Positions 188-55,149 of a stretch of DNA of 56,120 nucleotides are shown in pieces. Source of the stretch: Burkholderiaceae bacterium (GTDB lineage: Bacteria; Pseudomonadota; Gammaproteobacteria; Burkholderiales; Burkholderiaceae_E); assembly GCA_900299025.1 (NCBI GenBank), contig OMIE01000092.1:1-56120 (forward strand). The letters are read 5' to 3'. Position 1 is the stretch's first letter; each line of letters starts with the position of its first letter. A model generated the notes under the pieces. That model saw only the letters and a program-made list of their open reading frames with translations, did not search any database and had not been told where the DNA came from. The position numbers and the translations under genes are program-made.

Positions 188-451
188 CGACTGCGACGCT
201 TTCTTGTCGCGCCAAAGGGCTCGGAGGTCACGGGTATTACAGAGACTACTGATGGCAAGACCCTTTTTGTCAATATCCAGCATCCGGGCGAGAACACGCC
301 AGCGATCGGGACAGCGGCTGACTTCGCCTATGAAAGCGTCTGGCCGACAAACGGCGGCGGTATCACTGCCGGTGCGTACGGTCCTGGTAAGCGCCCTCGT
401 TCTGCCACACTGATGATTACCCGCACTGATGGCGGAAAAATCGGTCTGTAA
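188..451 (+). CDS. PhoX-type alkaline phosphatase, C-terminal fragment
   Basis: Only the C-terminal ~87 residues are present. The peptide LRRFLVAPKGSEVTGITET followed by DGKTLFVNIQHPGE is the characteristic end of the PhoX (DUF839) calcium-dependent periplasmic phosphomonoesterases, which release phosphate from organic esters. The catalytic propeller and the Tat signal that family members carry would lie upstream and are missing. The stop codon shares its last base with the ATG of the following protease gene (TAATG), so the two are translationally coupled. The left boundary is the point at which the PhoX similarity begins, not a real gene start. Family assignment is good; whether the gene is intact in the genome cannot be told. 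Confidence 0.7.
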   Translation, partial: RLRRFLVAPKGSEVTGITETTDGKTLFVNIQHPGENTPAIGTAADFAYESVWPTNGGGITAGAYGPGKRPRSATLMITRTDGGKIGL

Positions 452-2154
452 TGCGTTTTAGATCGCAGCTATCCGGACTTATCGGATTGCTGCTTTTACT
501 CGGTGCTTGCTCTTCAGGGGGCGATGCACCGAGTCAAGCAACTGGTAACACGAACCAGGGCACAAGCGGCCAAGGCTCAAACCCAGTTTCAGCGGCAGGA
601 TCAGCGCAAGGCCCAGATCCACAGCGCGCATTGCAATGGCACTTAAGCCTTGCTGAATTCTCCCCACAGGGCACAACACAATCCTCAAGCGAAATTCGTC
701 CGCTATACGATTTAGCATTAGGCAATCTCAGCGAGCGTGGTCGTGGTATTAGGATCGCTCTTATCGATGGAACGGTTGACGCCACGCACCCTGACCTTTT
801 GGGGCGACTTCTTGATTCATCGGCGATCTGCTGCGACTGGGTCCCGCTTACCAGGCAAAGCAACTCATCCAGTGAGAGTCCTGATAGCGCTATGCGCTCA
901 AGGGTCGCTGAAACGGGTCATGCCACAGGGCTTGCCGCACTGATTGCCGCAACTGAAAACAACAGCATCGGAGGCCATGGTATTGCGCCAGCAGCAATGC
1001 TCGTTAGCCTTAATGCGATCGCTAGCGGCGACGACAGCCGGCTTGTACAGGCACTACAGGTTGCTTTGGGTAGTGGTGCATCGGTGATCAACAACAGTTG
1101 GTCCCCGCCAGATCCCAATGAGGGCGGCAGCCGAAGCTTTTATCCTGCGCCACAAGCTTGGTACAGCGCCCTTGATGAGGCGCAAAGCAAGGGGCGCTCG
1201 GGCTTAGGCGCCATCATCGTAAAAGCAGCCGGTAATGGTGGTGCAGCCTTCAGTCCGTCGCGGCCTCGCAGCGACTCGGCAGACTCTGCTAATTATGATG
1301 GCTATGCACAACACCCTGCTGTCATCGGCGTTGGCGCTGTGGATGCTTTTGCAAGACCACTTGCTTTATCGGAGCCCGGTGCCCAGGTACTCGTTTCAGC
1401 CTTTTCGTCTCAGACAAATAGCCCAAGCCTGTCGACCGGTACGGAAGCGCTGCCCTCGGGAACCTCAAGCGCCGCTGCTATGGTGAGTGCCTTAAGCGCT
1501 TTAATGCTTGAAGCAAACCCCGGCTTAACTTGGCGCGATCTGCGCTGGATTCTTGCGACTACCGCGCGTCCTGTACCAGGCTACGACCAACCAGGTATCA
1601 GCAGCGCACAATCGCTGCTTCGCAGCCACGGCTACCACCAGCAAGTCGGGTTTGGGCTGGTCGATGCTGGCGCAGCGGTTCAATCCGCCAAAAGCTTTCA
1701 AGGTTTACCGCCCTTACTGAATTGTTCACTTAATGCAAAAAAAGATGCTCCGATCGTTACGCGAGTTAGTACCGGTGAGCAATTTGCTATGCCGTGGCAT
1801 CAGGTAGCGATAGCCCGAGAAAACTCAAAAATTTCATTTTCCTTTGATTTGGCAAAGGCTCAGTGCTCCATTGATCGCATCGAAAGCGTGGTGCTTTCGC
1901 TTGCTAGCTCGCATCAAGACGCAACAGGCTTGCGCATCACACTGATTAGTCCGCTTGGTCACGGTGTTCAGTTCGCAGCGCCGCGTGATTGCGCTCACAC
2001 GGCCTGCATGAATTTAAATGATGGCTTTCAGTTTCATAGCGTTCGCTTTATGGCCGAGCCTGCCGCGGGTCGCTGGATGCTGCAGATCAGTGAGGAAAGC
2101 GGCAAATCAATTGGGACCCTTAGCAAGCTTCAGCTAAGCCTTTGGGGTCACTAA
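451..2154 (+). CDS. Subtilisin-like (S8) serine protease lipoprotein with P-domain
   Basis: A 567-residue secreted protease. The N-terminus is a lipoprotein signal with lipobox LLGAC, the lipidated Cys being residue 20, followed by a Ser/Gly/Gln-rich linker. The S8 catalytic domain runs from about residue 95 to 415, with Asp106 in LIDGTVDATHPDL, His157 in ETGHATG, an oxyanion Asn in KAAGNGG and Ser339 in SGTSSAAAM. Residues ~430-567 resemble a proprotein-convertase P-domain, ending GTLSKLQLSLWG. This order is that of kexin-like bacterial proteases; here the protein is probably membrane-anchored in the periplasm or at the outer membrane. The His motif is GHATG instead of the usual HGTHVAG, but the triad is complete. 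It is coupled to the PhoX gene by a TAATG overlap; its substrate is unknown. Confidence 0.85.
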   Translation: MRFRSQLSGLIGLLLLLGACSSGGDAPSQATGNTNQGTSGQGSNPVSAAGSAQGPDPQRALQWHLSLAEFSPQGTTQSSSEIRPLYDLALGNLSERGRGIRIALIDGTVDATHPDLLGRLLDSSAICCDWVPLTRQSNSSSESPDSAMRSRVAETGHATGLAALIAATENNSIGGHGIAPAAMLVSLNAIASGDDSRLVQALQVALGSGASVINNSWSPPDPNEGGSRSFYPAPQAWYSALDEAQSKGRSGLGAIIVKAAGNGGAAFSPSRPRSDSADSANYDGYAQHPAVIGVGAVDAFARPLALSEPGAQVLVSAFSSQTNSPSLSTGTEALPSGTSSAAAMVSALSALMLEANPGLTWRDLRWILATTARPVPGYDQPGISSAQSLLRSHGYHQQVGFGLVDAGAAVQSAKSFQGLPPLLNCSLNAKKDAPIVTRVSTGEQFAMPWHQVAIARENSKISFSFDLAKAQCSIDRIESVVLSLASSHQDATGLRITLISPLGHGVQFAAPRDCAHTACMNLNDGFQFHSVRFMAEPAAGRWMLQISEESGKSIGTLSKLQLSLWGH

Positions 2155-2163
2155 ATCGCTTGC

Positions 2164-2190
2164 AAAAAAAAGCCTGCGATATGGCAGGCT
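2164..2190 (-). terminator. Intrinsic terminator of the candidate small RNA
   Basis: Seven-base-pair perfect stem AGCCTGC (2171-2177) with GCAGGCT (2184-2190) and a six-base loop. In the minus direction the stem is followed by eight consecutive T (2171-2164). There is no T-tract on the plus side, so it does not serve the protease gene that ends at 2154. With no minus-strand protein gene upstream, it needs a non-coding transcript to terminate. Confidence 0.75.
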
Positions 2191-2240
2191 GAATACCCCA
2201 CGCGTCGAGGGGTTGGGAGACAACCCGGAGGACGGGCTGT
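2164..2240 (-). ncRNA. Candidate small RNA (~77 nt), minus strand
   Basis: Read on the minus strand, a promoter-like pair (TTGACA, 16 bp, TTAAAT) at 2275-2248 is followed within about 10 bases by a compact structured stretch ending in a strong intrinsic terminator at 2190-2164. Hairpins visible on the way are GGGTTG/CAACCC (2226-2221 with 2215-2210), then CCCC/GGGG (2212-2209 with 2199-2196), which overlap and are alternatives, then the terminator stem. The RNA would expose pyrimidine-rich stretches GUCCUCC, CUCCC and CCCCUC that resemble anti-Shine-Dalgarno loops. No protein is encoded on this strand here. The transcript start near 2238-2240 is inferred. An alternative is that the plus strand, which has GGAGG at 2227-2231, is a leader remnant. 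Confidence 0.5.
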
Positions 2241-2247
2241 GATGTCA

Positions 2248-2275
2248 ATTTAACTGGACAGTTTTTAATTGTCAA
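2248..2275 (-). promoter_or_regulatory. Predicted sigma-70 promoter, minus strand (small RNA)
   Basis: Minus-strand -35 TTGACA (2275-2270), a perfect consensus match, a 16-bp spacer and -10 TTAAAT (2253-2248), 4 of 6. The -35 is the left arm of the TGTCAA-N6-TTGACT palindrome, so a repressor bound there would block this promoter. The predicted start is near 2240. Confidence 0.5.
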
Positions 2276-2308
2276 TCTATTTTGACTTTATTGTTCTGGA
2301 CAATTAAA
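2254..2308. promoter_or_regulatory. Clustered operator half-sites (TGTN12ACA-like)
   Basis: Core palindrome TGTCAATCTATTTTGACT at 2270-2287 (TGT-N12-ACT, one base from the PpsR/CrtJ consensus TGT-N12-ACA). Around it are a direct repeat CTGGACA(G/A)TT at 2254-2263 and 2296-2305, 42 bp apart or four helical turns, and a perfect 10-bp inverted repeat TTTAATTGTC (2264-2273) with GACAATTAAA (2299-2308). That makes four GAC/GTC-type half-sites between the two predicted -10 elements. A nearly identical palindrome precedes the BLUF gene at 55130. The binding protein is not encoded in the window; PpsR/CrtJ or a MerR-type LitR/CarH regulator are the reasonable candidates. Confidence 0.55.
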
Positions 2309-2310
2309 GT
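2282..2310 (+). promoter_or_regulatory. Predicted sigma-70 promoter of the cobalamin-binding genes
   Basis: Plus-strand -35 TTGACT (2282-2287), a 17-bp spacer and -10 TAAAGT (2305-2310), both close to consensus (5 of 6 and 4 of 6). The -35 is the right arm of the palindrome at 2270-2287. It and the minus-strand promoter are thus placed back to back, six bases apart, and could be controlled by one bound protein. The predicted leader to the gene at 2381 is about 65 nt. Confidence 0.5.
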
Positions 2311-2380
2311 CTGCCCAGAAAACTTCACAAACGCATTTTTCGTTTTGTTCGACAAGGAAACTTAACGGCGATCACGTCCA

Positions 2381-3229
2381 ATGACCGACGGTTTTGATAG
2401 ATCTTTTACGCACGCAATCGATACAAGTCAGGCATCGATCGAAGCTGTTTTCCTCAAGCGAGTTGTCCCGCTCATGGCAGCCCATCGCAGCGCTTGGCTT
2501 CGCGCCGGCGTACAAGCTAGGCTTTGTATCAGTACCGAGGAATTCGATCGCTTTTGTCGGTATTGTCTTTCGGGAGATGCTGATTCAGTTCATGCGCTTT
2601 GCGACTTATGGCTTGTGCGCGGCGTTTCGGCGGAATCAATTGTTGATGCAGCGATCACAAAGGCCGCACAAAGCTTTGGACAGCGATGGCTTGATGATCA
2701 TGCTCACTTTGCCGAGGTGACGCAGGCCTGTTGGCAGTTACAAAAAGTCTTGCAGCAGCTAACGCCCACGCTTGAGAAGCCGATCACGGCGCATGCTTCA
2801 AAGCCAAGAGCGCTCATGCTTGGCGCCGAGCAATGCAGCCACAGGCTTGGCCTCATGGTCGCATCGAGTCTATTGCGCCGTGAAGGCTTTGAGGTTGAAT
2901 GCGGATACTTTTCAACGAGAGCCCCATTCCTTAGCAAAGCACAGGCACTCGATGACGCAGGTTTGCAGCTGCTTGCCTTCAGCCTTAGTTGTAGCGATCA
3001 ACTCAAGGCCTGCAAAGCACTCGTGAAGCACATTCGCCGAAAGCGACCCGACCTTCGCCTTGTGCTCGGTGGGTCCCTCATCAGCGAAGCTTTCACAGCA
3101 CGATCTATTGGGGTGCCCGTGGATGCAGTGATTGTCGGAAAACCGGCTTGGTCTGAGATCCTTGAAGGGCTGGGAATTAGCCCGACCAAGCTTTGTCCAT
3201 GGCAAGAAAATGCTTGCCACTTGTCCTAA
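2381..3229 (+). CDS. Cobalamin-binding (SCHIC/AerR/PpaA-like) protein, copy 1
   Basis: A 282-residue cytosolic protein with the layout of AerR, PpaA and the AppA C-terminus: a helical cap (about residues 60-125) with W103 in QRWLDDHAHFAEVTQACWQLQ, then a Rossmann-like B12-binding fold (about 140-270). These proteins act as light- or redox-sensing antirepressors of PpsR/CrtJ in purple bacteria; that role is inferred here. The cobalamin loop reads QCSHRLG with His154. The Asp of the usual DxHxxG motif is replaced by Cys, although the second copy downstream keeps it. No helix-turn-helix or DNA-binding domain is visible, so it must act through a partner. The ATG lacks a clear ribosome binding site. 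The gene is preceded by the shared palindrome and followed 103 bp later by its paralogue. Confidence 0.75.
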   Translation: MTDGFDRSFTHAIDTSQASIEAVFLKRVVPLMAAHRSAWLRAGVQARLCISTEEFDRFCRYCLSGDADSVHALCDLWLVRGVSAESIVDAAITKAAQSFGQRWLDDHAHFAEVTQACWQLQKVLQQLTPTLEKPITAHASKPRALMLGAEQCSHRLGLMVASSLLRREGFEVECGYFSTRAPFLSKAQALDDAGLQLLAFSLSCSDQLKACKALVKHIRRKRPDLRLVLGGSLISEAFTARSIGVPVDAVIVGKPAWSEILEGLGISPTKLCPWQENACHLS

Positions 3230-3277
3230 CTTGGATCGATACTCGATGCGGGGGAAAAGACCTTTCGTTTTCCTCGA

Positions 3278-3291
3278 CACGGCGCGCCGTG
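3278..3291. promoter_or_regulatory. Perfect 14-bp GC palindrome between the two cobalamin-binding genes
   Basis: CACGGCGCGCCGTG is perfectly self-complementary and lies midway in the 103-bp gap. It is preceded by an A/T-arm hairpin GGAAAA (3252-3257) with TTTTCC (3268-3273). There is no T-tract, so it is not an intrinsic terminator. It may be a protein-binding site or an RNA processing or attenuation element separating expression of the two copies. Confidence 0.35.
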
Positions 3292-3332
3292 CCTCCTCAG
3301 ATTCATGAAGATTTCAACTTGGGGAGACGAGT

Positions 3333-4163
3333 GTGGGATCAAGGCGTTCACATGATAGAGATTCAACCCAGCATGCCATCGGCGACATGGTGGAACAACT
3401 TGTGCTGCCGAAAATGGTTCAAAGCCATCGCGAACTAGGACTAAGACCCAAACTTATTTGCGACCTCGATGGCTTTATTGAATTATTGCTTTCAAACGAT
3501 CAGCCTAGCCTGATCGCATCGATTGAGACGATGCGCGAGGCGGGTCACCCGCTTGAACTGATCTATAGTGAGGTCTTAACACCAGCTGCGCGTAGGCTCG
3601 GCGAAAAGTGGCTTCGCGATGAATTCAATTTCAGTGAAGTAACGATTGCGACCTGGCAGATTGAACAGCTTCTGCACCACTTTCACCAGGCCTTTGAAAA
3701 TAGCCAGCGTAGGCACACGAGTAAGGCATCGATACTTATCAGCATGATGCCTGGTGACCAGCATAGCCTTGGTGCGAAAATGCTGAGCACTTTTTTCAGG
3801 AAAGACCACTGGGAAGTCACCCTGCTACAGCCGCAAAGCCTGCAGGCCATTCACGACGAGGTCATCGCCTCGAATCCGAGTTTGATAGCCATAACCGTGT
3901 CACAAGTTGAATCGCTCGGGCAAGTAAAGCTTTTGCTTAAACTCGCCAGGCAGCAGCCAGCGCTAAGATCGATGCCCTGGATGATTGGCGGTCGCGTGAT
4001 CAATGAGCACCCGATGCAAGCCGTTGCGGTGCTATCTGACCGCAATATTCATCTTTGCCAGGGCGATGCAAATCAAGCATTGGTGCTAGCCAGAAGGCTT
4101 CTCGGTCTTGAAGCTAGAGGACAAGCGCAAAGCGAGCATAGCAAGGCCGCAACCCAGCATTAG
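3333..4163 (+). CDS. Cobalamin-binding (SCHIC/AerR/PpaA-like) protein, copy 2
   Basis: A 276-residue paralogue of the preceding protein with the same order: a helical cap with W93 in EKWLRDEFNFSEVTIATWQIE, then a B12-binding domain with the complete base-off motif DQHSLG (Asp142, His144) in MPGDQHSLGAKML. Complete DxHxxG and the F-x-EVT stretch after the cap Trp place it with AerR/PpaA/AppA-SCHIC rather than metabolic B12 enzymes. The start is a GTG, chosen because GGGGAGA at 3321-3327 gives an excellent ribosome binding site five bases upstream; an internal ATG further in lacks one. The Ser/Arg/His-rich first ~18 residues are not conserved-looking. It is probably co-transcribed with copy 1. 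The pair may be one haem/cobalamin sensor plus one diverged partner, which is inference. Confidence 0.75.
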   Translation: MGSRRSHDRDSTQHAIGDMVEQLVLPKMVQSHRELGLRPKLICDLDGFIELLLSNDQPSLIASIETMREAGHPLELIYSEVLTPAARRLGEKWLRDEFNFSEVTIATWQIEQLLHHFHQAFENSQRRHTSKASILISMMPGDQHSLGAKMLSTFFRKDHWEVTLLQPQSLQAIHDEVIASNPSLIAITVSQVESLGQVKLLLKLARQQPALRSMPWMIGGRVINEHPMQAVAVLSDRNIHLCQGDANQALVLARRLLGLEARGQAQSEHSKAATQH

Positions 4164-4232
4164 GCCTCTGCTCAGAGCAGGGTGAAGCTTTTCACTGCCC
4201 AGTACAAGCCCATGCTTTGCTATGCTTAGGGC

Positions 4233-4856
4233 ATGAATGCACCTGCCCCATCGCAAAGCCTCGCCCACTTCTCGGAAGCCTCGCCCAGACGCCTGATGCA
4301 CACCCGTCGCATCGAATCGCAGGGTTTTCGACGCGAAGACGGTTTGTGGGATATCGAAGCAAGAATCGTCGACACCAAGCCTTTTGCCTATGAGGAACCC
4401 TACCGTGGCCATCGCGAAGCAGAAAGTGATGTACACAATATTGCGATTCGTCTAACGCTTGATGATGACTTCGTTGTGCACGATATCGAAGTACTCATGC
4501 CGGCCGTGCCTTATCCAAGTTGTGCCGGCGCCATTCCGAATTTCAAGCTTTTGATCGGTGCGAAGGTCGGTGCTGGCTGGCGTAAAGCTGTTCAGGCGGT
4601 GGTGGGATCGACAAAGGGCTGTACCCACGCCCGCGAACTGCTTTTTCCGATGGCAACGGTTGCATTTCAAACGCTTTTTGGCTGGGAAGATGAGGCCGAA
4701 AGCCAGCAAGAGAAAGAGCGCCGCGCGCAACGCGAAGCGATGCGTGGCCAACAAGCAGGACGCCCCCATTTCCTGGATGGCTGCCATAGCTGGGCAAGTG
4801 ATGGCGAAGTGGTGGCAACGCTCTACCCTCAATTCTTCACCCCTAAAAAGCTCTGA
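4233..4856 (+). CDS. DUF2889 family protein
   Basis: A 207-residue soluble protein. HTRRIESQGFRREDGLWDIEARIVDTK and the distal block KGCTHARELLFPMATVAFQT are the two signature regions of DUF2889, a family of unknown function common in Beta- and Alphaproteobacteria, sometimes near degradation genes. Family length is matched. There is no signal peptide or membrane segment. The 69-bp gap upstream contains a weak hairpin (GTGAA/TTCAC) and a possible TATGCT -10, so it may have its own promoter rather than belonging to the cobalamin-binding operon. It converges on the LysR-type gene, with 53 bp between the ends. Confidence 0.75.
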   Translation: MNAPAPSQSLAHFSEASPRRLMHTRRIESQGFRREDGLWDIEARIVDTKPFAYEEPYRGHREAESDVHNIAIRLTLDDDFVVHDIEVLMPAVPYPSCAGAIPNFKLLIGAKVGAGWRKAVQAVVGSTKGCTHARELLFPMATVAFQTLFGWEDEAESQQEKERRAQREAMRGQQAGRPHFLDGCHSWASDGEVVATLYPQFFTPKKL

Positions 4857-54563: not shown

Positions 54564-55010
54564 TCAGCGCAAAGTGCGCGCGAAGGGGCCACCGCCCAAG
54601 GCGGTGAACTCAGCCAGGATCGCCGGCGCACGCTGAGGTTGCTCGTGTAATTGGTCCAACACATCGTTGGGCGCTTGAACCAGCCCGTCAATGGCACTTC
54701 CCCAATAACCTTCGCGGAAAGCGAGTTGCATATGCCAGTCACGAAATAGGCGAATCGGGATTTGTTGCTCACTCAGGATCTCGATATCGCCATGCCGCGG
54801 ATCCTGGCGAATGGCCTGCCAAAGCTTACCCATGCTTGGATCGGGGCCCTCAATCCATTGGTAAAACAAGCCACGGTCATAAACCAACAATCCTGTGATC
54901 ATCTCAGCCTGGTTACGACCTCTGGCTTGGCCGAGCAAATACAAAAGCTCGAGTTCCGTCAAAGGAATCGTGGCCTTGCTGCGATAGACCAGCGTGGAAA
55001 GCGGCGTCAA
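54564..55010 (-). CDS. BLUF-domain blue-light photoreceptor
   Basis: A 148-residue protein, nearly all one BLUF domain binding FAD. Tyr9, Asn33, Gln51, Trp92 and Met94 sit at exactly the spacings of AppA Tyr21, Asn45, Gln63, Trp104 and Met106, so the photocycle set is complete. Flanking blocks LVYRSKAT, MITGLLVYDRGLFYQWIEGP, DPRHGDIEIL and RLFRDWHMQLAF are the family pattern. Residues ~100-148 are the short capping helices; no EAL, GGDEF or SCHIC output domain is fused, so it signals by protein contact. The start codon is TTG with TAAGG ten bases upstream; no ATG is in frame. A TGT-N12-ACA palindrome lies 120 bp upstream. Confidence 0.93.
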   Translation of the reverse strand: MTPLSTLVYRSKATIPLTELELLYLLGQARGRNQAEMITGLLVYDRGLFYQWIEGPDPSMGKLWQAIRQDPRHGDIEILSEQQIPIRLFRDWHMQLAFREGYWGSAIDGLVQAPNDVLDQLHEQPQRAPAILAEFTALGGGPFARTLR

Positions 55011-55129
55011 AGTGCGTGCCTTACAAAGTCTCCTCGATGGACCCGAGGCTTGGTCAGCGGCTCATGAATCCCACCGCAGCGCTCATTATGGACCTTTCAC
55101 GCGGGTTGCATAGCCCTAAAGCCCCAATA

Positions 55130-55149
55130 TTGTCAATTTATTTTGACAA
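55130..55149. promoter_or_regulatory. Perfect TTGTCAA-N6-TTGACAA palindrome upstream of the BLUF gene
   Basis: Arms TTGTCAA (55130-55136) and TTGACAA (55143-55149) are perfect inverted repeats of 7 bp around TTTATT. The site contains TGT-N12-ACA, the PpsR/CrtJ consensus, and its left arm reads TTGACA on the minus strand, a perfect -35 for the BLUF gene (a weak -10 TATGCA would be 18 bp on). It is 16 of 18 bases identical to the palindrome at 2270-2287. It starts directly beside the stop codon of the alpha/beta hydrolase gene. Confidence 0.65.

Follow-up and report, generated by a model that had tools for sequence, protein, structure and literature searches.

A palindrome matching the PpsR/CrtJ operator precedes an AppA-lineage BLUF gene and a tandem aerR pair outside the photosynthesis cluster of a Burkholderiaceae bacterium

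PpsR/CrtJ binds TGTN12ACA over the −35 and −10 regions of the genes that it controls, and its action is modulated either by AerR/PpaA, through B12 and light, or by AppA, through BLUF and heme (PMC5362033, PMC10890935, PMC9144470). The usual place of aerR is beside ppsR, and PpsR sites between bchF and ppaA are already known (PMC10890935). In Rubrivivax, PpsR binding was redox-dependent at a 9-bp spacing and not at 8 bp (PMC4452267). In 2009, a single-domain BLUF protein encoded near ppsR in Congregibacter litoralis was suggested to influence PpsR "in a yet unknown way" (PMC2654016), and a BLUF gene lies upstream of the photosynthesis clusters in the NOR5/OM60 clade (PMC3176799). PpsR sites may also stand before the Congregibacter/NOR5 BLUF gene: according to its legend, Fig. 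S5 indicates sites near sensor genes.

In this study, we analysed a window of 56,120 nucleotides, which is the entire contig C92 of the draft genome G000 (2.97 Mb, 97.7% complete, 180 contigs), and compared it with three other genomes of the same genus (G041, G042 and G043). A sequence-only reading of the window had proposed that a BLUF gene and two cobalamin-binding genes share one palindromic operator. The two 18-mers on which it relied, TGTCAATCTATTTTGACT (2270-2287) and TGTCAATTTATTTTGACA (55131-55148), were found at these positions with 2 mismatches in 18. As described, the BLUF gene lies on the minus strand (54564-55010), and the two genes with B12 domains lie on the plus strand (2381-3229 and 3333-4163). 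The features of the window were as follows.

2243-2260, plus strand: upper PpsR-type operator TGTCAATTTAACTGGACA, exact TGTC-N10-GACA, kept in G041 and G043
2270-2287, plus strand: lower PpsR-type operator TGTCAATCTATTTTGACT, TGT-N12-ACT, 9 bp after the upper one; TGTCAATCTGTTTTGACT in G041 and G043
2282-2310, plus strand: sigma-70-like promoter TTGACT-17-TAAAGT, predicted from a consensus match of 9 of 12 positions, −35 within the lower operator
2381-3229, plus strand: aerR1 (P0001), AerR/PpaA-type B12-domain protein of 282 aa, assigned by domains, structure matches, tree and residues
3333-4163, plus strand: aerR2 (P0002), AerR/PpaA-type B12-domain protein of 276 aa with a GTG start, assigned on the same four grounds
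54564-55010, minus strand: stand-alone BLUF protein of the AppA lineage, 148 aa, without a SCHIC domain, assigned by structure matches, alignment, tree and controls
55107-55136, minus strand: promoter-like TTGACA-18-TATGCA before the BLUF gene, read by eye, its −35 being one operator half
55131-55148, no strand assigned: PpsR-type operator TGTCAATTTATTTTGACA upstream of the minus-strand BLUF gene, identical in G041

Both 18-mers fitted the PpsR/CrtJ pattern TGT-N12-ACA in the way that had been claimed: the site at 55131 was exact and that at 2270 ended in ACT. The former agrees letter for letter with the consensus TGTcaN8tgACA, as quoted in our excerpt of PMC2654016. The exact site at 2243-2260 was absent from the earlier reading. 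The window held 3 matches to the joint 18-mer with at most 3 mismatches against 0.07 expected, a count reached by 0 of 100 shuffles. Over the 2.97-Mb genome, the joint 18-mer gave 9 matches with at most 3 mismatches, corresponding to 8 places (one matched on both strands), while the reversed control gave 4; the sole further genomic place with at most 2 mismatches was TGTCAATTTATTTGGACG, between bchF and ppsR. The pattern TTGTCAA-N6-TTGACAA, which the sequence-only reading had put forward for scanning, was not significant in the window (4 matches against 2.5 expected; 24 of 100 shuffles reached 4), and a looser 19-base pattern proved useless in the whole genome (198 matches against 85 in the control).

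Exact TGTC-N10-GACA sites numbered 26 in the genome against 10 for the pattern read backwards. Twenty of the 26 lay inside genes, meaning inside open frames of at least 100 aa rather than curated genes, and the six intergenic ones lay upstream of aerR1 (2243), the BLUF gene (55131), bchC, bchI, bchF/ppsR and a PF10118 metal-hydrolase gene on contig C106. With this placement, every intergenic exact site except the PF10118 one belongs to a photosynthesis promoter or a window gene. The PF10118 gene has no known tie to photosynthesis, and its site, one of the six, counts against the PpsR reading. About 0.003 exact sites would be expected in the two window stretches jointly at average genomic density, a figure somewhat low for AT-rich stretches because the density averages genes and intergenic DNA. 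Because the site-scoring matrix was built from seven sites that it then rescored, our counts rest on the plain patterns instead.

A search of the genome for ppsR, which the sequence-only reading had recommended, found a single gene inside the photosynthesis cluster, scoring 376.7 bits against the TIGR02040 cut-off of 275.4. The protein has PAS domains and a Fis-type HTH, and its gene adjoins bchF (identity backed by Pfam) on a contig other than that of the window. Judging from translations, we take bchN, B, H, L, M and lhaA to lie on one side of bchF/ppsR and bchG and bchP on the other. A second contig presumably carries the puf genes, bchZYXC and crt genes, again as read from translations, plus bchI, whose magnesium-chelatase domain alone among the genes of that contig was backed by Pfam. 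With photosynthesis genes on two contigs, the G000 organism, an uncultured betaproteobacterium, looks like an anoxygenic phototroph. The same site was found before bchF/ppsR, bchC and bchI, indicating that the expected bacteriochlorophyll targets are present; of the photolyase genes expected along with them, the one photolyase-related gene examined (C162) had no such site in its 3.2-kb locus. The genome thus encodes PpsR and carries the same site at the usual PpsR/CrtJ targets. Among 57 ppsR loci of relatives, several of them from near relatives, 40 had a site with at most 1 mismatch to TGTCA-N8-TGACA, 11 of these exact, whereas shuffles gave a mean of 3.5 with at most 1 mismatch and a maximum of 7 in 20 runs. 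Two PpsR-type palindromes 16 bp apart, overlapping by 2 bp, recurred before aerR-ppsR in several families (L112:149/165, L114:259/275, L116:431/447), and the bchF/ppsR sites of G000 overlap likewise (L028:10001/10017).

Compared with the PpsR/CrtJ regulon of purple bacteria (bchF/aerR-ppsR, bchC, crt, puc), G000 shares the palindrome, the tandem layout, the −35 overlap and the targets bchC and bchF/ppsR. It differs in that aerR is not beside ppsR but present in two copies on another contig with a double operator of its own, and in that a BLUF gene outside the cluster also carries an operator.

To characterise the tandem genes, we examined their domains, structure matches, phylogeny and cobalamin-contacting residues. 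A B12-binding domain was present in both P0001 and P0002. The B12-binding_2 domain scored above its cut-off in P0002 and just under it in P0001 (22.1 bits against 23; 24.4 bits in a second search), and the pair thus shows the B12-binding_2 plus B12-binding combination of AerR/PpaA. AerR was the only PDB match of P0001 and the best of P0002, which also matched AppA more weakly and gave a weak NCBIfam match to CarH, at 32 bits where the cut-off is 400. A quick tree of 117 domains placed the 58 AppA-type fusions in one clade (100) and P0001 and P0002 among AerR rows, on long branches with nearby supports of 88-93 and deeper forks not settled; the tree program warned of long branches (including P0001 versus P0002) and of unusual composition in 4 of 6 rows of the P0001/P0002 proteins. 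In AerR, the lower cobalamin ligand is His145 and the cap is formed by W94/F101 (PMC9144470). Counterparts of all three were seen in both proteins; as the alignment contained no R. capsulatus sequence, we placed them through the W-x6-F and QH motifs. In the three AppA-type rows aligned, Glu or Asp stood where AerR has F101, and four inserted residues were present that P0001 and P0002 lack. A His near the N-terminus was kept in AerR2 of G000, G041 and G043, and not in AerR1.

A PF02607 search of G000 returned, besides P0001 and P0002, only one MetH-like and one LitR-like protein. In five further genomes from the family, the homologue found with P0001 was the immediate neighbour of ppsR and had the same orientation; in G000, bchF and ppsR are neighbours and the aerR pair is on another contig. 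As judged from these features, the tandem proteins are putative PpsR antirepressors of the AerR/PpaA type, in two copies outside the photosynthesis cluster. The label SCHIC in the sequence-only reading should read AerR/PpaA-type cobalamin domain. A strict split AppA, with BLUF and SCHIC halves derived from one former AppA, was also considered; its B12 half is unsupported, as both tandem proteins group with AerR and retain the residues of the cobalamin cap. In domains, ligand His, cap residues and tree position the pair resembles the AerR/PpaA antirepressors, among them the long and short AerR of R. capsulatus, where two AerR forms accompany one PpsR/CrtJ, as two AerRs accompany one PpsR here. 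The two proteins may by analogy, and given the N-terminal His kept in AerR2 alone, be an opposed pair like those forms; they come, however, from two separate genes unlinked from ppsR rather than from one gene, and their cobalamin binding and opposed roles are putative.

Upstream of aerR1, two sites 9 bp apart, within the 7-9 bp usual for tandem sites, overlap the sigma-70-like promoter, with the −35 in the lower site, which ends ACT rather than ACA. The gap equals the spacing of redox-dependent Rubrivivax PpsR binding. Before the BLUF gene there is just one site, one half of which resembles a −35 hexamer; since TATGCA is without the final T, no promoter was reported at this place by the consensus scan.

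We then compared these regions among the genus relatives. The tandem B12 genes were present in G041 (90% identity) and G043 (63%), and the double operator with its 9-bp gap was kept in both (2 of 2). Between G000 and G043, the two sites differed at 2 of 36 bases and the 9-bp linker at 5 of 9; one of the differences improves the palindrome of the upper site. The 23 bases after the lower site, ending in the −10-like TAAAGT, were unchanged, and 26 of the next 42 bases were changed in an ungapped count that is inflated by an indel. The 25 bases ahead of the sites were also unchanged, so conservation there is not confined to the sites. The BLUF gene was found in G041 (99%), where 0 of 18 operator bases and 8 of the 120 bases after the operator were changed; L141 and G041:C94 probably represent a single contig and do not count as independent. 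The gene was not found in G042 or in G043, the latter 62% complete. G042 had neither the tandem B12 genes nor the BLUF gene although PpsR was present, and, at 93% completeness, both sets may be genuinely missing from this genome above all; because a contig edge coincides with the start of its ppsR, the bchF side is not visible. The bchF/ppsR sites were kept in G041 and G043, the second site with 3 changes in its spacer part. The expected retention of the motif in related genomes thus held within the genus (2 of 2 relatives having the B12 genes, 1 of 1 having the BLUF gene), while outside it the BLUF operator was weak or absent. On its upstream side the aerR pair is flanked by a gene for a subtilase that has a P-domain, and on its downstream side by a DUF2889 gene (window 451-4856); G041 and G043 showed partial frames of both, arranged alike. 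At the contig start, a frame (23-451) matched just the last 35 positions of the PhoX phosphatase profile; probably the rest of this gene lies off the contig or the assembly is mixed there.

AppA of Cereibacter/Rhodobacter sphaeroides is a BLUF-SCHIC antirepressor of PpsR. The best solved relatives of the window BLUF protein were AppA BLUF domains (69 bits, 3.3e-18), whereas the four other BLUF proteins of G000, taken as controls, best matched cyanobacterial PixD-type proteins or the BlrB-like 2byc, with AppA at just 41-47 bits. The photocycle residues Y9, Q51, W92 and M94 (Tyr, Gln, Trp, Met) were invariant in seven aligned proteins, in keeping with an AppA-like BLUF domain; a SCHIC domain was absent from the polypeptide, whose 148 aa hold BLUF only. 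In a scan of 84,980 species genomes, we examined the best 80 of 355 BLUF relatives. The first 12 were stand-alone proteins of about 150 aa from betaproteobacterial MAGs, 60 carried a SCHIC/AerR-type domain in frame, and 8 were other short BLUFs; these 80 included a 99% match in the MAG "Betaproteobacteria bacterium isolate K_Offshore_40m_m2_080". A quick tree of about 100 columns, from which L102 (frame not BLUF) and L098 (too short) were left out, set 16 ordinary BLUFs, including the four others of G000, apart from the AppA-type fusions (85). The stand-alone proteins and the window BLUF formed one clade (99) that joined three fusions (82) on the AppA-type side. This support of 82 modestly favours loss of the SCHIC domain from an AppA-type ancestor. 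Against AppA, then, the G000 protein has an AppA-like BLUF domain and belongs to a stand-alone clade among the fusions, but lacks SCHIC, and its contact with PpsR is putative.

Across 399 genomes of the order, such BLUF relatives (E up to 1e-20) occurred in 6 and PpsR (E up to 1e-60) in 49, and all 6 were among the 49. The probability of such an overlap by chance is 2.6e-6 when counted by genome and 9e-5 when counted by genus; close kinship among some of the six makes both values optimistic.

We also searched for TGTCA-N8-TGACA upstream of the 12 stand-alone and 60 fused genes among the best 80 of 355, leaving aside the 8 other short BLUFs. Before the 12 stand-alone genes, several of which are near relatives, the site was exact in 1 (the genus relative), within 1 mismatch in 4 and within 2 in 7, and had at least 3 mismatches in 5. 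Shuffles gave 0.007, 0.17 and 1.4 for 0, at most 1 and at most 2 mismatches, and 2, 0 and 0 of 300 reached the observed counts; none of 11 downstream stretches had a site with at most 2 mismatches. Before the 60 fused genes, the corresponding counts were 1, 5 and 12 against 0.013, 0.28 and 4.6 in shuffles, and 0, 0 and 1 in 58 downstream stretches. In a second family, the left palindrome half was degraded and mainly the right half kept. Predicted control of the BLUF gene by an exact operator was seen only in this genus. No site scoring at least 11 was present at the 13 BLUF loci from the family's other genera (L090-L102). The four other BLUF genes of G000 had none scoring at least 9 within 300 bp upstream. 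Sites with at most 1 mismatch lay within 300 bp upstream of 5 of the 60 AppA-type fusions (L192, L159, L193, L206, L213), and, with 0.28 in shuffles, PpsR control of appA may occur elsewhere in a minority of AppA-type genes. One of the four other G000 BLUF genes lies on the contig of the photosynthesis cluster, about 29 kb from ppsR (L029:863-1498, G000:C143:863); it belongs to the ordinary BLUFs, and no PpsR-type site stands nearby.

Because the palindrome before the BLUF and B12 genes matches the PpsR site, PpsR probably governs the expression of its own partners in light sensing. We consider it very probable that the palindrome is a PpsR/CrtJ operator and that PpsR represses the BLUF gene and the aerR pair, forming a double-negative loop through antirepressors. 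PpsR, one of two kinds of regulator suggested by the sequence-only reading, is backed in silico by the single ppsR, by the same site before bchF/ppsR, bchC and bchI, and by conservation in the genus. The other suggestion was a LitR/CarH-type MerR-cobalamin regulator, whose B12-light regulon would be independent of photosynthesis control. C162 does carry a gene for such a MerR-B12 protein, next to a photolyase-related gene, and the weak CarH match of P0002 points the same way; yet the best TGTCA-N8-TGACA matches in the 3.2-kb litR locus have 2 mismatches, the known LitR/CarH sites differ from the window palindrome, and the motif stands at bchF/ppsR, bchC and bchI. The suggestion therefore went unsupported, and we regard this regulator as highly improbable. 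Without any regulator, chance and a −35 hexamer (TTGACA) common to AT-rich promoters could also account for the likeness of the sites. The right half of each site is indeed −35-like, and it is the half mainly kept in the second family, but the left half TGTCA is kept too, the aerR1 linker changes while the sites do not, the intergenic exact sites fall mostly at photosynthesis promoters, and the expected number in the two stretches is about 0.003; this explanation has very little probability.

A rival that shares the operator holds that PpsR binds but activates the BLUF and aerR genes, or that its sign switches with the redox state or when AerR is bound. In Rubrivivax, PpsR is described as acting both as a repressor and as an activator (PMC5362033), and the 9-bp spacing here is the redox-dependent one and not 8 bp (PMC4452267). 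Both operators, however, cover the apparent −35, by eye in the case of the BLUF gene, and a protein bound there usually blocks polymerase; we consider activation unlikely, though clearly less so than the two explanations above.

In the preferred reading of repression by PpsR, the protein would bind the predicted operators over the −35 hexamers of the BLUF gene and the aerR pair and would repress, rather than activate, both promoters. The products are of kinds known to relieve PpsR/CrtJ, and the BLUF protein and the AerRs would contact PpsR. A repressor that represses its own antirepressors would form a double-negative loop: light, B12 or redox would weaken PpsR, antirepressors would accumulate, and the switch would be pushed further open. 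The BLUF protein would take part in this feedback only if in contact with PpsR. A further, tentative proposal, to which we give somewhat less than an even chance, is a dispersed AppA, in which the light input of PpsR is split between a free SCHIC-less AppA-type BLUF protein and two free AerRs, all under PpsR from unlinked operators. Feedback, in place of the usual aerR-ppsR operon, would then determine the antirepressor-to-repressor ratio.

The single regulon joining blue-light and B12 sensing, as first proposed from the sequence, is upheld in predicted form through PpsR, but the link is not wholly new, being a known AppA/AerR theme. What is new is the arrangement. Already known were PpsR sites around bchF and ppaA and the connection of blue light and B12 with PpsR through AppA and AerR. 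The literature searched, in part as excerpts and with most subscription journals beyond its reach, yielded no description of an unlinked duplicated aerR, or of a BLUF gene outside the cluster under a PpsR operator. In Congregibacter/NOR5 the BLUF gene is close to ppsR, whereas that of G000 is on another contig, is of the AppA lineage and has an identified operator of its own; this comparison is of gene arrangement. The G000 BLUF protein touches the question of how phototrophs without a fused AppA make PpsR responsive to blue light, and an AppA-lineage BLUF gene that carries a predicted PpsR operator, and whose relatives within the order occurred solely in genomes encoding PpsR, offers a concrete candidate for this input. 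An aerR unlinked from ppsR yet under predicted PpsR control is one way in which the strength of the switch could evolve.

Two further loci of G000 are recorded here. The LitR-like MerR-B12 gene adjoins the deoxyribodipyrimidine photolyase-related (DPRP) gene (L104:1156-3193, G000:C162), so that this phototroph has a second type of cobalamin light sensor. The PF10118 metal-hydrolase gene has the exact TGTC-N10-GACA site TGTCATCCAAAATTGACA 44 bp before it (L032:8103-8120, G000:C106:18102-18119) and comes after a TonB receptor gene and a PF01497 binding-protein gene. What we take from translations to be an ABC permease and an ATPase also lie ahead of it. These C106 genes possibly serve B12 or siderophore uptake, and the PF10118 gene is a possible further PpsR target.
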